DNA of 64,000 nt. It comes from Dechloromonas denitrificans (GTDB lineage: Bacteria > Pseudomonadota > Gammaproteobacteria > Burkholderiales > Rhodocyclaceae). The translations under genes and the position numbers were made by a program. Position 1 is the first letter of the stretch; each line of letters starts with the position of its first letter. The notes under the pieces were generated by a model that had not been told where the DNA came from, searched no databases, and saw nothing but the letters and a program-made list of their open reading frames with translations. The stretch is taken from assembly GCF_020510685.1 (NCBI RefSeq), contig NZ_CP075185.1, positions 1,488,001 through 1,552,000 of the forward strand, in the 5' to 3' direction. Positions 48,493-51,396 of this stretch are shown in pieces.

Positions 48493-49266
48493 TCAGGCGG
48501 CGAGCAGGCTTTGCAGCTTGCTGTAGAAAGTCTTGTCGCGTTCGTATTGCCCATCGGCGAGCTGCCCCTTATTGGCTTCCAGTGTGGCCAGCAGGTTGTC
48601 GACGGCCTGGCGGTAGCTGTCGATTTTGTCGGGAGGGTACTGCGTTCCCATAGTCTTGCCGTCAACCTCCAGGCCGTAGATGGCGATATGCATGCTCAAC
48701 TGGTAGGTCATCATCTCGCCCATGCCCATCCCGGCGGTCGCCTGGAACCAGGCTTCCTTGAAGGCATCCGGCGCATCCTTGGGCGGGAAGGACATGGTCC
48801 GGGCGGCGCCCACCTCGTCGATTCCGTCATGGTTCAGGTCGACGCTGTAGCCTTCCGGCAGCAGCAGGTTTTGCGCCCCTTCATCGCTCAGTGAGCCGGT
48901 GTCGATGCGCTCGGCCAGGCAGTGGTTCTGGCGCACGGCATCAAGCTCCTTGGCCGACAGCGTGCCGAGAAAGGCGCGGGCGTTTTCGATCCCTCCCGAG
49001 CTGTAGGCCTTGTTCAGCACCTCGGCATAGAGGGCCTGGTTTTCGGTGCTGACGCCGCGCCGGGCCGCGAGTTCGCTATGCGTACTGCCGAGAATGTCGG
49101 CGAGCGACCGGCTGTTGGTCTCGCTGCTGCCGCTACTGTTTTGCGTCGGCGTGCTTTGCGCCGCGAAGGCGGCTTGATAGGCCGCGTAGAAGCCGCTGTC
49201 CGGCGTTTCGCGGTAGCCCAGACGCTGGGAGGTGGTGATTGGCGCTCCGACATTTCTGACATCCAT
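48493..49266 (-). CDS. Hypothetical protein with EF-hand-like loop
   Basis: A 257-residue protein with AAGGAA before the ATG. A Ser/Gln/Thr-rich N-terminal third has no signal peptide. Near residue 145 a DLNHDGIDEVG loop matches a calcium-binding EF-hand or dockerin-type motif. The C-terminus is helical (YRQAVDNLLATLEANKGQL). Similar proteins of unknown role occur in proteobacteria; secretion by a signal-less route is possible. Confidence 0.7.
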   Translation of the reverse strand: MDVRNVGAPITTSQRLGYRETPDSGFYAAYQAAFAAQSTPTQNSSGSSETNSRSLADILGSTHSELAARRGVSTENQALYAEVLNKAYSSGGIENARAFLGTLSAKELDAVRQNHCLAERIDTGSLSDEGAQNLLLPEGYSVDLNHDGIDEVGAARTMSFPPKDAPDAFKEAWFQATAGMGMGEMMTYQLSMHIAIYGLEVDGKTMGTQYPPDKIDSYRQAVDNLLATLEANKGQLADGQYERDKTFYSKLQSLLAA

Positions 49267-49406
49267 GCTGTTTCCTTTCGGTAAGTTTTGCCGTTTTTCG
49301 GGAATGCCGTCCGTTTTCTTGCCGCTTTTCGGTCGGGCAGGGCATTGTTCCGTTGACTAAGCAGGTGACGTGCCAACGGCATGAACGGCGATGCTCGCTG
49401 CGGCTA

Positions 49407-49436
49407 TTGACGCACTGCACAAAATGCCCGCACAAT
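49407..49436 (+). promoter_or_regulatory. Promoter of the eamA leader
   Basis: A -35 box TTGACG (49407-49412), an 18-base spacer and a -10 box CACAAT (49431-49436). The expected start point is near 49443, the first base of the leader peptide ATG, so the leader message may be leaderless. Confidence 0.5.
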
Positions 49437-49442
49437 GAATCT

Positions 49443-49535
49443 ATGAGCTATCGTCCTTTCGCCCTGATTTCGCTTAGCCGCCGCGTTCTGCGTGCGTGGC
49501 GCGTTGTCGTCGATCCGGGGCCGGGAGTGGGGTAG
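49443..49535 (+). CDS. Leader peptide of the eamA attenuator
   Basis: A 30-codon ORF, too small for normal gene calling, directly upstream of an intrinsic terminator and the exporter gene. Codons 13-23 read R-R-V-L-R-A-W-R-V-V-V, an arginine/valine/leucine-rich control run like those of amino acid operon leader peptides. The stop (TAG at 49533) is 24 bases before the terminator stem. No strong ribosome site is seen, which fits a leaderless start. Confidence 0.6.
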   Translation: MSYRPFALISLSRRVLRAWRVVVDPGPGVG

Positions 49536-49568
49536 CTGTTTCATACCGAATTCACCAGAGGCCGCGGA
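49514..49568 (+). promoter_or_regulatory. Predicted antiterminator pairing
   Basis: TCCGGGGCC (49514-49522, within the last codons of the leader peptide) can pair with GGCCGCGGA (49560-49568, the left arm of the terminator) with 8 of 9 matches. This would exclude the terminator hairpin when a ribosome stalls on the preceding valine and arginine codons. Confidence 0.45.
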
Positions 49569-49597
49569 TTCAACCCCGCGGCCTTTTTGTTTTTTAC
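49559..49597 (+). terminator. Intrinsic terminator/attenuator before eamA
   Basis: A 9-bp perfect stem AGGCCGCGG / CCGCGGCCT (49559-49567 with 49576-49584, 8-base loop) is followed by two T runs. It lies between the leader peptide and the exporter gene, 22 bases before the ATG of the exporter, so it must be read through for expression. Confidence 0.9.
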
Positions 49598-49618
49598 TCA
49601 CCATAAGAGGAGCGTTCG

Positions 49619-50524
49619 ATGCCTGTTCCCGTCGCCTATCTCGCCATCGTCCTGATCTGGTCCACTACGCCGCTGGCCATCCAGTGGAGTACGCAAGGGG
49701 CCGGCTTTGCCTTCGCCGTGCTGGCCCGCATGCTGATCGGTGTCGTTGTCGCCGCACTGTTGGTCGCCGCCTGGCGCATCGGCCTGCCGCTGCATGCGCG
49801 GGCGCGTCGGGCCTATCTGGTGGGCGGCCTCGGACTGTTCGGCTCGATGGCCTTGACCTACTGGGCGGCGCGTTACGTGCACTCCGGGTTGGTTTCGGTG
49901 CTCTTCGGTCTGTCGCCGTTGATGGCCGGGGGGCTGGCCGCCCTGTGCCTGGGCGAACGGGCGCTGACGCCACTCAAGCTGGTCGGCATGCTGCTCGGGG
50001 CGCTCGGCCTGGCGGTCATTTTCATCCATGGCGACAGCCTGGGCGGCGAATACGCGCTGGCCGGACTGCTCGTGCTGTTGCTGGCCGTCTTCATTTACTC
50101 GGGCAGTCTGGTCTGGCTGAAGCGGATCGGCGACGACAGCCCACCGCTGGCCACCACGGTCGGTACGCTGCTCGTTTCCCTGCCGTTGTTTACGCTGCTC
50201 TGGGCCGCCACCGACGGACAGTTGCCGGCCTTGGTACCGCTGCGCTCGGCGGGGGCCATCGTCTATCTCGGCGTTTTCGGCTCAGTGATCGGCTTTGCGC
50301 TCTACTATTACGTCATCCAGCACCTCGAGGCTTCGAAAGTGGCCTTGATCACGCTGATCACGCCGGTGCTGGCGCTGCTGCTCGGTCATCTGTTCAATGG
50401 CGAGACGATCGGCTGGCGCCTGTGGCTGGGGAGCGGCCTGATCCTGTTCGGTTTGACCGTGCATCAGGCGAATGCGCTGATTTCCTTGTGTCTCTCGCCG
50501 CGCCCCGCGCGGAGCCTCGGCTAA
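49619..50524 (+). CDS. EamA-family (DMT) transporter, probable metabolite exporter
   Basis: A 301-residue inner-membrane protein with about ten helices in two EamA repeats (roughly 1-135 and 147-290). AGAGGAG lies 7 bases before the ATG. Members of this drug/metabolite family export amino acids, purines or toxic metabolites. An upstream leader peptide and terminator suggest amino-acid-responsive transcription, which supports an amino acid substrate; the codon run hints at valine, leucine or arginine, but this is inference. Confidence 0.9.
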   Translation: MPVPVAYLAIVLIWSTTPLAIQWSTQGAGFAFAVLARMLIGVVVAALLVAAWRIGLPLHARARRAYLVGGLGLFGSMALTYWAARYVHSGLVSVLFGLSPLMAGGLAALCLGERALTPLKLVGMLLGALGLAVIFIHGDSLGGEYALAGLLVLLLAVFIYSGSLVWLKRIGDDSPPLATTVGTLLVSLPLFTLLWAATDGQLPALVPLRSAGAIVYLGVFGSVIGFALYYYVIQHLEASKVALITLITPVLALLLGHLFNGETIGWRLWLGSGLILFGLTVHQANALISLCLSPRPARSLG

Positions 50525-50616
50525 ACACCCGAAACCCGCACCAGATGGTGCATGGGCGCCGCCGACTTCTGTTAATCTGTCACCCCACCAAAATTACCTG
50601 TTTTTCGGAGTTCGGT

Positions 50617-51396
50617 TTGCTGCGGATCTTGATCGTTGATGACAACCTTTCCATGCGCAAGGTACTGGCCGCGTTGTTTACCAGCGCGGGGCACGAGGTC
50701 GTCGGGGCTTTTGCCGACGGCAACGGTATCGAGGAACTGATCCGTCAGACCGCGCCGGATCTCGTTTGTCTCGATTACCACATGCCGGGGCGCGACGGCT
50801 TGACCATCCTGAAGGTCATCCAGGCCGAAATGCCGCAAATCGACGTCGTCTTCATGACCGCTTCCAGCGAGTCCGACATCGAGGAAAAGGCCGCCGATGC
50901 GGGCGCCTCGGGCTTCATTCGCAAGCCGTTCAGCCAGGCGCAGATCATCGACGAACTGCGTGCCGTCGAAGAAACGCGCACGGCCGTGAACCAGGCGGGC
51001 GCAGTGCCTCCTGGTGAGGTCAGGGTGCGCCGGCGGGGCACGGCGGTGATTGCCGACGACAACGGCTCGGTCCGTCTGGTGCTCAAGGGGCTGCTCGAAG
51101 CCTGCGGCCTGCAGGTTGTCCAGTCGGTGGCGACCGGTGGGGAAGCGATTCTGGCGGCCAAGAATCACCAGCCACGGATCCTCTGTCTCGATATCAACAT
51201 GCCGGTGATGGGCGGCCTGGAGGCCTTGCCGCAAATCGTCGAGGCCAGTCCGCAGACCGCGGTGATCATGGTCACCGGCTGCGCCGACAAGATGCTGGTT
51301 GCCCAGTCGGCCGGCCTCGGCGCCGTCGGTTACATCATCAAGCCGCTGCGCCCGGCGTATGTCGAGAACTTCATCCGCAAGCTGCTCGGCGCCTAG
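50617..51396 (+). CDS. Tandem double-receiver response regulator
   Basis: A 259-residue protein with two complete CheY-like domains and no output domain. First: VDDN at the start, phospho-Asp in LVCLDYHMPGRDG, Lys in FIRKPFS. Second: IADDN, phospho-Asp in ILCLDINMPVMGG, Lys in YIIKPLRP. The start is TTG at 50617 with GGAG 6 bases upstream; the frame runs further back through eamA in another phase but is not coding there. It overlaps the end of modC convergently by 4 bases. It may compete for phosphate as a sink or relay. No kinase is adjacent. Confidence 0.88.
   Translation: MLRILIVDDNLSMRKVLAALFTSAGHEVVGAFADGNGIEELIRQTAPDLVCLDYHMPGRDGLTILKVIQAEMPQIDVVFMTASSESDIEEKAADAGASGFIRKPFSQAQIIDELRAVEETRTAVNQAGAVPPGEVRVRRRGTAVIADDNGSVRLVLKGLLEACGLQVVQSVATGGEAILAAKNHQPRILCLDINMPVMGGLEALPQIVEASPQTAVIMVTGCADKMLVAQSAGLGAVGYIIKPLRPAYVENFIRKLLGA

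Follow-up and report, generated by a model that had tools for sequence, protein, structure and literature searches.

A putative attenuator with one conserved tryptophan codon precedes an EamA-family transporter gene in Dechloromonas denitrificans and relatives

The locus

The window, by which we mean the whole stretch of 64,000 nucleotides that was analysed, comes from Dechloromonas denitrificans, whose genome of 4.62 Mb is a single contig. It contains a gene for an EamA-family transporter that is preceded by a promoter, a short leader ORF and an intrinsic terminator, arranged as follows.

49407..49436, + strand: sigma-70-type promoter, -35 TTGACG (49407-49412) and -10 CACAAT (49431-49436) with an 18-nt spacer
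49443..49535, + strand: leader ORF of 30 codons, probably leaderless, ATG at 49443 and stop at 49533-49535
49497..49499, + strand: Trp codon TGG, codon 19 of the leader, proposed as the sensor from the leader comparison
49514..49522, + strand: antiterminator arm TCCGGGGCC, within the leader ORF
49560..49568, + strand: shared arm GGCCGCGGA, whose partner is either 49514-49522 or the right arm of the terminator
49557..49588, + strand: intrinsic terminator, 11-pair stem (49557-49586) followed by a T-run
49606..49612, + strand: AGAGGAG, probable ribosome-binding site for the transporter, read from the sequence
49619..50524, + strand: EamA-family (DMT superfamily) transporter, 301 aa, ATG at 49619, PF00892 E = 4.1e-34

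The leader ORF translates as MSYRPFALISLSRRVLRAWRVVVDPGPGVG, and eight of nine positions of TCCGGGGCC can pair with GGCCGCGGA, the left arm of the terminator. The promoter is the only promoter-like site within 48900-51000, a region in which shuffles yield 0.4. As in trp-type attenuators, a translatable leader ORF, judged by sequence alone, thus lies behind its own promoter and before a structural gene. The original prediction had named the promoter, the leader ORF, the pairing segment, the terminator and the EamA gene with its AGAGGAG, and each of them was recovered where it had been placed. The element had been described as a translational attenuator; its anatomy is that of transcription attenuation instead.

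None of the 4227 Rfam models matched in the window, the best score in the region being that of suhB/mmgR with 18.2 bits against a cut-off of 41, and the open-licence PMC literature yielded no account of an EamA gene preceded by a Trp attenuator. Premature terminators are the subject of one paper there (PMC2965389). Divergent from the leader, a 257-aa ORF on the reverse strand (48493-49266) had no Pfam match over the 256 residues scanned. Upstream of the attenuator and in the same direction, two other loci carry an ORF labelled by eye as a MocR-like regulator (L053, 14-1486; L071, 986-2488).

Conservation and distribution

An ortholog of the EamA gene was found at E<=1e-60 in 38 of 76 congeneric genomes. 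All of the best 30 congeneric EamA loci, the window's own included, have TTGAC, an ATG at a near-constant distance from it, a leader with Trp and a terminator. A covariance model, R1, gave 37 strong matches (E<1e-12, with E-values that are rough for this model and for the broader R2) among the same 76 genomes, which are nearly the genomes that have the gene. The exceptions are G007 and G042, with the gene and no R1 match, G002, matched by R2 only, and G061 and G070, which have an R1 match yet no gene match at E<=1e-60.

Among the best 80 named EamA loci the element was present in 66, including one (L083) that the script had missed and that was counted by hand. The taxa concerned are Rhodocyclales, Thiobacillus and other Hydrogenophilales, Gallionellaceae, Nitrosomonadales and two Chromatiaceae (L118, L124). 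The element was not found at L077, L084, L085, L086, L092, L094, L102, L103, L106, L111 and L113, while L115 and L123, with a terminator and without this leader, were not counted, and neither was L108, with only 31 nt of upstream sequence. EamA homologs without the element hence make up 13 of the 79 judgeable loci.

At the level of the order, R1 matched 19 of 399 genomes at E<=1e-3, several of the matches being terminator look-alikes; those of about 28-33 bits that do not stand before EamA (L043-L047, L049-L051) were read as such and dropped. The R2 model, built on 47 diverse rows, matched 30 of the 399 genomes at E<=1e-4 and, at the same threshold, 37 of 369 sampled genomes of the class, or 31 of 272 genera with the window's own genus included. 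An EamA gene lies downstream in 49 of the 56 R2 loci (L139-L194), 46 of them recognised by profile and three (L170, L186, L193) cut at contig ends. Among the 29 class-level loci (L166-L194), 20 have a Trp leader ORF with TTGA 35-38 nt before its ATG, L192 has the attenuator pattern without Trp, and for the other eight the script recovered no complete pattern. The R2 loci without EamA downstream are L160, whose leader lacks Trp, L161, L163, L164, L165, L179 and L191. By eye, L160 stands before a transglutaminase-like ORF and L161 before an aminotransferase resembling argD, and L179, with a two-Trp leader, stands before another ORF; these three are possibly moved or unrelated attenuators.

Start of the leader

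TTGA is found 35-38 nt upstream of the ATG in all 85 distinct leaders, and in 74 of them the distance is 36 nt; the script gave preference to ATGs that had this motif 28-50 nt upstream, without fixing the distance exactly. In 72 of the 85, 6 nt separate the end of the best -10 hexamer from the ATG, as in the window. This fixed distance between promoter and ATG points to a transcription start at or beside the ATG, and the leader ORF is probably leaderless, without a ribosome-binding site. The rnTrpL RNA of Sinorhizobium meliloti likewise starts with its ATG (PMC7298713).

The conserved codon

A Trp codon occurs at codon 17-25 in 83 of the 85 distinct leaders, which is the fair figure for a column that is anchored on Trp itself; the script that picked the ORFs gave weight both to an upstream TTGA at 28-50 nt and to the presence of a Trp, so that another ORF could have been chosen where several exist. 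The distance from ATG to Trp takes eight values (codons 17 and 19-25), and the frame has therefore been kept despite changes in length. Once the 83 leaders are anchored on Trp, the best Val column reaches 39/83 and the best Arg columns 63/83 and 61/83. When only the 45 leaders that are less than 60% identical are taken, the strongest columns after Trp are Arg at -2 (30/45) and Arg at +1 (28/45), with a maximum of 17/45 for Val. The original prediction had proposed, as its test, to look for conservation of the leader codons and the two hairpins among relatives; the hairpins are kept, as described below, and the Val and Arg codons vary.

The leaders hold few other Trp codons, 12 among 2554, and tandem Trp codons were seen in L090 only, so that the tandem or multiple codons of trp-type attenuators are lacking. 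Within the genus, variability upstream of the Trp is about the same at the first, second and third positions of the codons (0.81, 0.73 and 0.90 bits), from which the peptide appears to be little constrained and it is the codon that seems to matter. Exceptions exist: the Trp is missing while the other parts are apparently intact in L130, in L192, in L140 and in L041, which is the same place as L139; L041 and L130 are the two Trp-less leaders among the 85. L145, of the same genus as L139 and L140, has the Trp.

Alternative pairing

Both alternative structures are unusually stable compared with dinucleotide shuffles, with z = -5.67 for the terminator hairpin and z = -3.18 for the antiterminator segment 49512-49574. 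The leader upstream of the arm folds no better than shuffles (z = -0.41), and a pause hairpin ahead of the Trp codon is therefore not proposed. Terminator-like patterns as such are common, with four in the region and 2.9 in shuffles, and the case thus rests on the strength and conservation of this particular hairpin. With -27.2 kcal/mol the antiterminator segment exceeds the terminator hairpin by itself (-21.1 kcal/mol) in stability, which suggests that an arm left free should prevail as long as the right arm has yet to be made. When the whole untranslated leader is folded, the terminator is present and the arm is base-paired to leader sequence further upstream.

Pairing was counted on an alignment of 47 diverse rows (A4); an earlier search in which any 8-mer was allowed often chose segments upstream of the Trp and is not the basis of these counts. 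In the terminator stem 98.8% of cells are paired, both sides have changed at five of nine pairs, and the covariation score was reached by none of 500 shuffles. For the antiterminator 85.0% of cells are paired, compared with 23-46% for slid controls, and four of its nine pairs have changed on both sides. Its covariation score was reached by two of 500 shuffles, and relatedness among the rows can inflate such scores. The paired fraction is barely above the shuffled mean (82.9%), which is high because the arms are GC-rich and conserved. The fifth base of the shared arm is A in 15 rows, in all of which the upstream arm has T. It is G in the other 32; opposite it stand G in 23 rows, T in three, C in three and A in one, and the partner is missing in two. 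One antiterminator pair is accordingly a G-G mismatch in 23 of 47 rows, which counts against the model. Pairing in the gammaproteobacterial loci was looked at by script only, and several of these have a best partner other than the expected segment. A mutually exclusive antiterminator and intrinsic terminator, as in trp-type attenuators, are what the alignment supports, and the two pairings are kept across relatives as the original prediction of a leader-peptide attenuator would have it.

The spacing between the codon and the arm is likewise constrained. From the end of TGG to the antiterminator arm there are 10-17 nt in 44 of 45 rows and 23 in L081, and the spacing is exactly 10 nt in eight of the 45; the codon of the presumably sensed amino acid is thus kept just upstream of the arm, another trait of trp-type attenuators. 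The arm lies inside the leader ORF in all 45 rows, with the stop codon 5-37 nt after it. A ribosome with TGG in its A site ends about 10 nt past that codon. With this footprint, a ribosome waiting at TGG would leave the arm free, and one at the stop would cover the arm in most leaders. As read in the aligned sequences, the parts, the conserved Trp codon with its spacing to the arm and both alternative pairings are present.

Proposed mechanism and alternatives

We consider it likely that the element is a ribosome-mediated transcription attenuator that reads the charging of tRNA-Trp at one Trp codon. With the transcription start at the leader ATG, or just beside it, a ribosome would begin on the leaderless ORF. 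With ample Trp-tRNA it would pass codon 19, reach the stop and cover 49514-49522, whereupon the terminator would form and transcription end near 49588. A ribosome waiting at codon 19 would leave the arm free to pair with 49560-49568 and block the terminator, and the EamA gene would be transcribed, together with a chorismate-mutase-like gene where this is kept. Translation of the leader, the stall, the Trp-tRNA signal and the direction of the response, on at low charging, we infer. Two further observations count in favour of Trp sensing. A leader ORF holding four Trp codons, MTPLRIWNEWHGWRRWRP, lies 126 nt ahead of the trpE ATG in the same genome (G000:C1, L132 position 1300, outside the window), where no T-run terminator between leader and trpE was seen by eye; and relatives carry a chorismate mutase type II in the attenuator-EamA unit. 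It counts against Trp sensing that most leaders have a single Trp codon, that the Trp is missing from a few (L041, L130, L140, L192), that some EamA homologs lack the element and that the controlled gene is not biosynthetic.

Another reading, to which we give a small chance, is nascent-peptide arrest, in which an excess of a ligand, free Trp or the substrate of the transporter, would stall the ribosome through a Trp/Arg peptide and induce an exporter in the manner of TnaC. The TnaC leader peptide has a key Trp residue and works by arrest at the stop codon and Rho. Arrest would suit an exporter as well as a chorismate mutase that diverts chorismate from Trp, and Arg is frequent before and after the Trp. 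The EamA leader shares with TnaC a Trp-bearing peptide and differs from it in its intrinsic terminator, its weak peptide constraint and its variable distance from Trp to the stop, 9 to about 20 residues following the Trp where TnaC-type arrest would have a fixed number. In the eight rows with 10-nt spacing, moreover, a ribosome arrested after the Trp would, by the footprint given above, overlap the arm, and at least in these rows a wait for Trp-tRNA agrees better with the geometry than an arrest once Trp has been added.

Unlikely in our estimate is that the element senses slow translation in general, or drugs that target the ribosome, with the Trp codon as no more than the slow step. A near-invariant Trp codon is not expected of such a sensor, and the surrounding Arg codons are mostly CGC or CGT, presumably not rare ones. 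There is a published precedent in the ribosome-mediated transcription attenuation of an exporter by bmrB, which stands before bmrCD in Bacillus subtilis and responds to lincomycin, erythromycin and chloramphenicol (PMC4191407). The likeness lies in leader-peptide transcription attenuation of an exporter; the bmrB system differs in its drug signal and ABC pump, where the EamA element has one conserved amino-acid codon and an EamA-type transporter. That Val or Arg codons are the sensor, as originally proposed from the R-R-V-L-R-A-W-R-V-V-V run of the window's leader, is very improbable, since both are replaced across families (Val at most 39/83, Arg at most 63/83) against 83/85 for Trp.

Textbook trp leaders have two or more Trp codons in a row. 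The EamA element shares with the trpL of E. coli and the leaderless trpL of S. meliloti a Trp leader ORF and an antiterminator opposed to an intrinsic terminator, and with the latter probably also the start of the leader RNA at its ATG (PMC7298713). The trp operon attenuators have several Trp codons in a row and control Trp biosynthesis, whereas the EamA element usually has one, with the antiterminator arm inside the ORF, and precedes a transporter, to which some relatives add the chorismate-mutase-like gene. Such a leader would manage with one Trp codon, probably without a ribosome-binding site, and would unite an EamA transporter family with tryptophan across many genera of beta- and gammaproteobacteria.

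The transporter and its substrate

Members of the EamA family are usually viewed as exporters. The paradox raised by the original prediction, a presumed exporter that is switched on when charged tRNA is low, remains, with the difference that it concerns Trp and not Val or Arg. Either the EamA protein imports, which would fit a response that is on at low charging, or poor charging of tRNA-Trp is a sign of some other stress. The superfamily of the EamA protein also includes RibN. This transporter was found through an FMN riboswitch in Rhizobium and imports under end-product control (PMC4418817). A further and unlikely option is efflux by EamA of a Trp-like antimetabolite, or of a compound that inhibits tryptophanyl-tRNA synthetase, the effect of which on charging the attenuator would detect. 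The cell would then sense a poison through the very step that is poisoned, and it would be understandable that an exporter responds to low charged tRNA. The element makes two proposals testable, namely that EamA imports aromatic amino acids or that it exports something that depletes charged tRNA-Trp.

The transporter matches the EamA family in general, and the YedA and YddG models match it weakly, below their cut-offs; for the YddG aromatic amino acid exporters (NF050091) it scores 37.4 bits against a curated cut-off of 300. A PDB search with the EamA profile gave no matches at E<=0.01. In an all-against-all comparison of ORFs around 40 loci, 20 unnamed and 20 named, the EamA cluster spans 32 and the next largest cluster five, and in the absence of another conserved neighbour, synteny gives no substrate. 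The gene controlled, EamA in the R2 loci counted above (49/56), is also not one of biosynthesis of the amino acid presumably sensed, as it would be in a trp-type attenuator.

A chorismate-mutase-like second gene

The distance from the terminator to EamA falls into three classes among the 30 congeneric loci. It is 353-384 nt in 15, of which 13 have a chorismate-mutase-like ORF, shortened in L029; 122-162 nt in 11; and 32-46 nt in four, the window included. The attenuator persists where the enzyme gene has been lost, so that EamA is the constant target. The second gene is a chorismate mutase type II (PF01817, 7.1e-19), nearest to the isochorismate lyase and "CM-like" models and below their cut-offs, and PchB is the only solved relative that was found. 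By a simple motif, at least 17 of the best 80 named loci keep the gene, which, judged by its family assignment, is a second link to aromatic metabolism. Most of the loci with 122-162 nt (L010, L012, L014, L015, L017, L018, L022, L023, L024, L026 and L027) contain ORFs of 27-34 codons that retain the ends of the chorismate-mutase-like gene, a pattern of repeated internal loss in which the attenuator stays.
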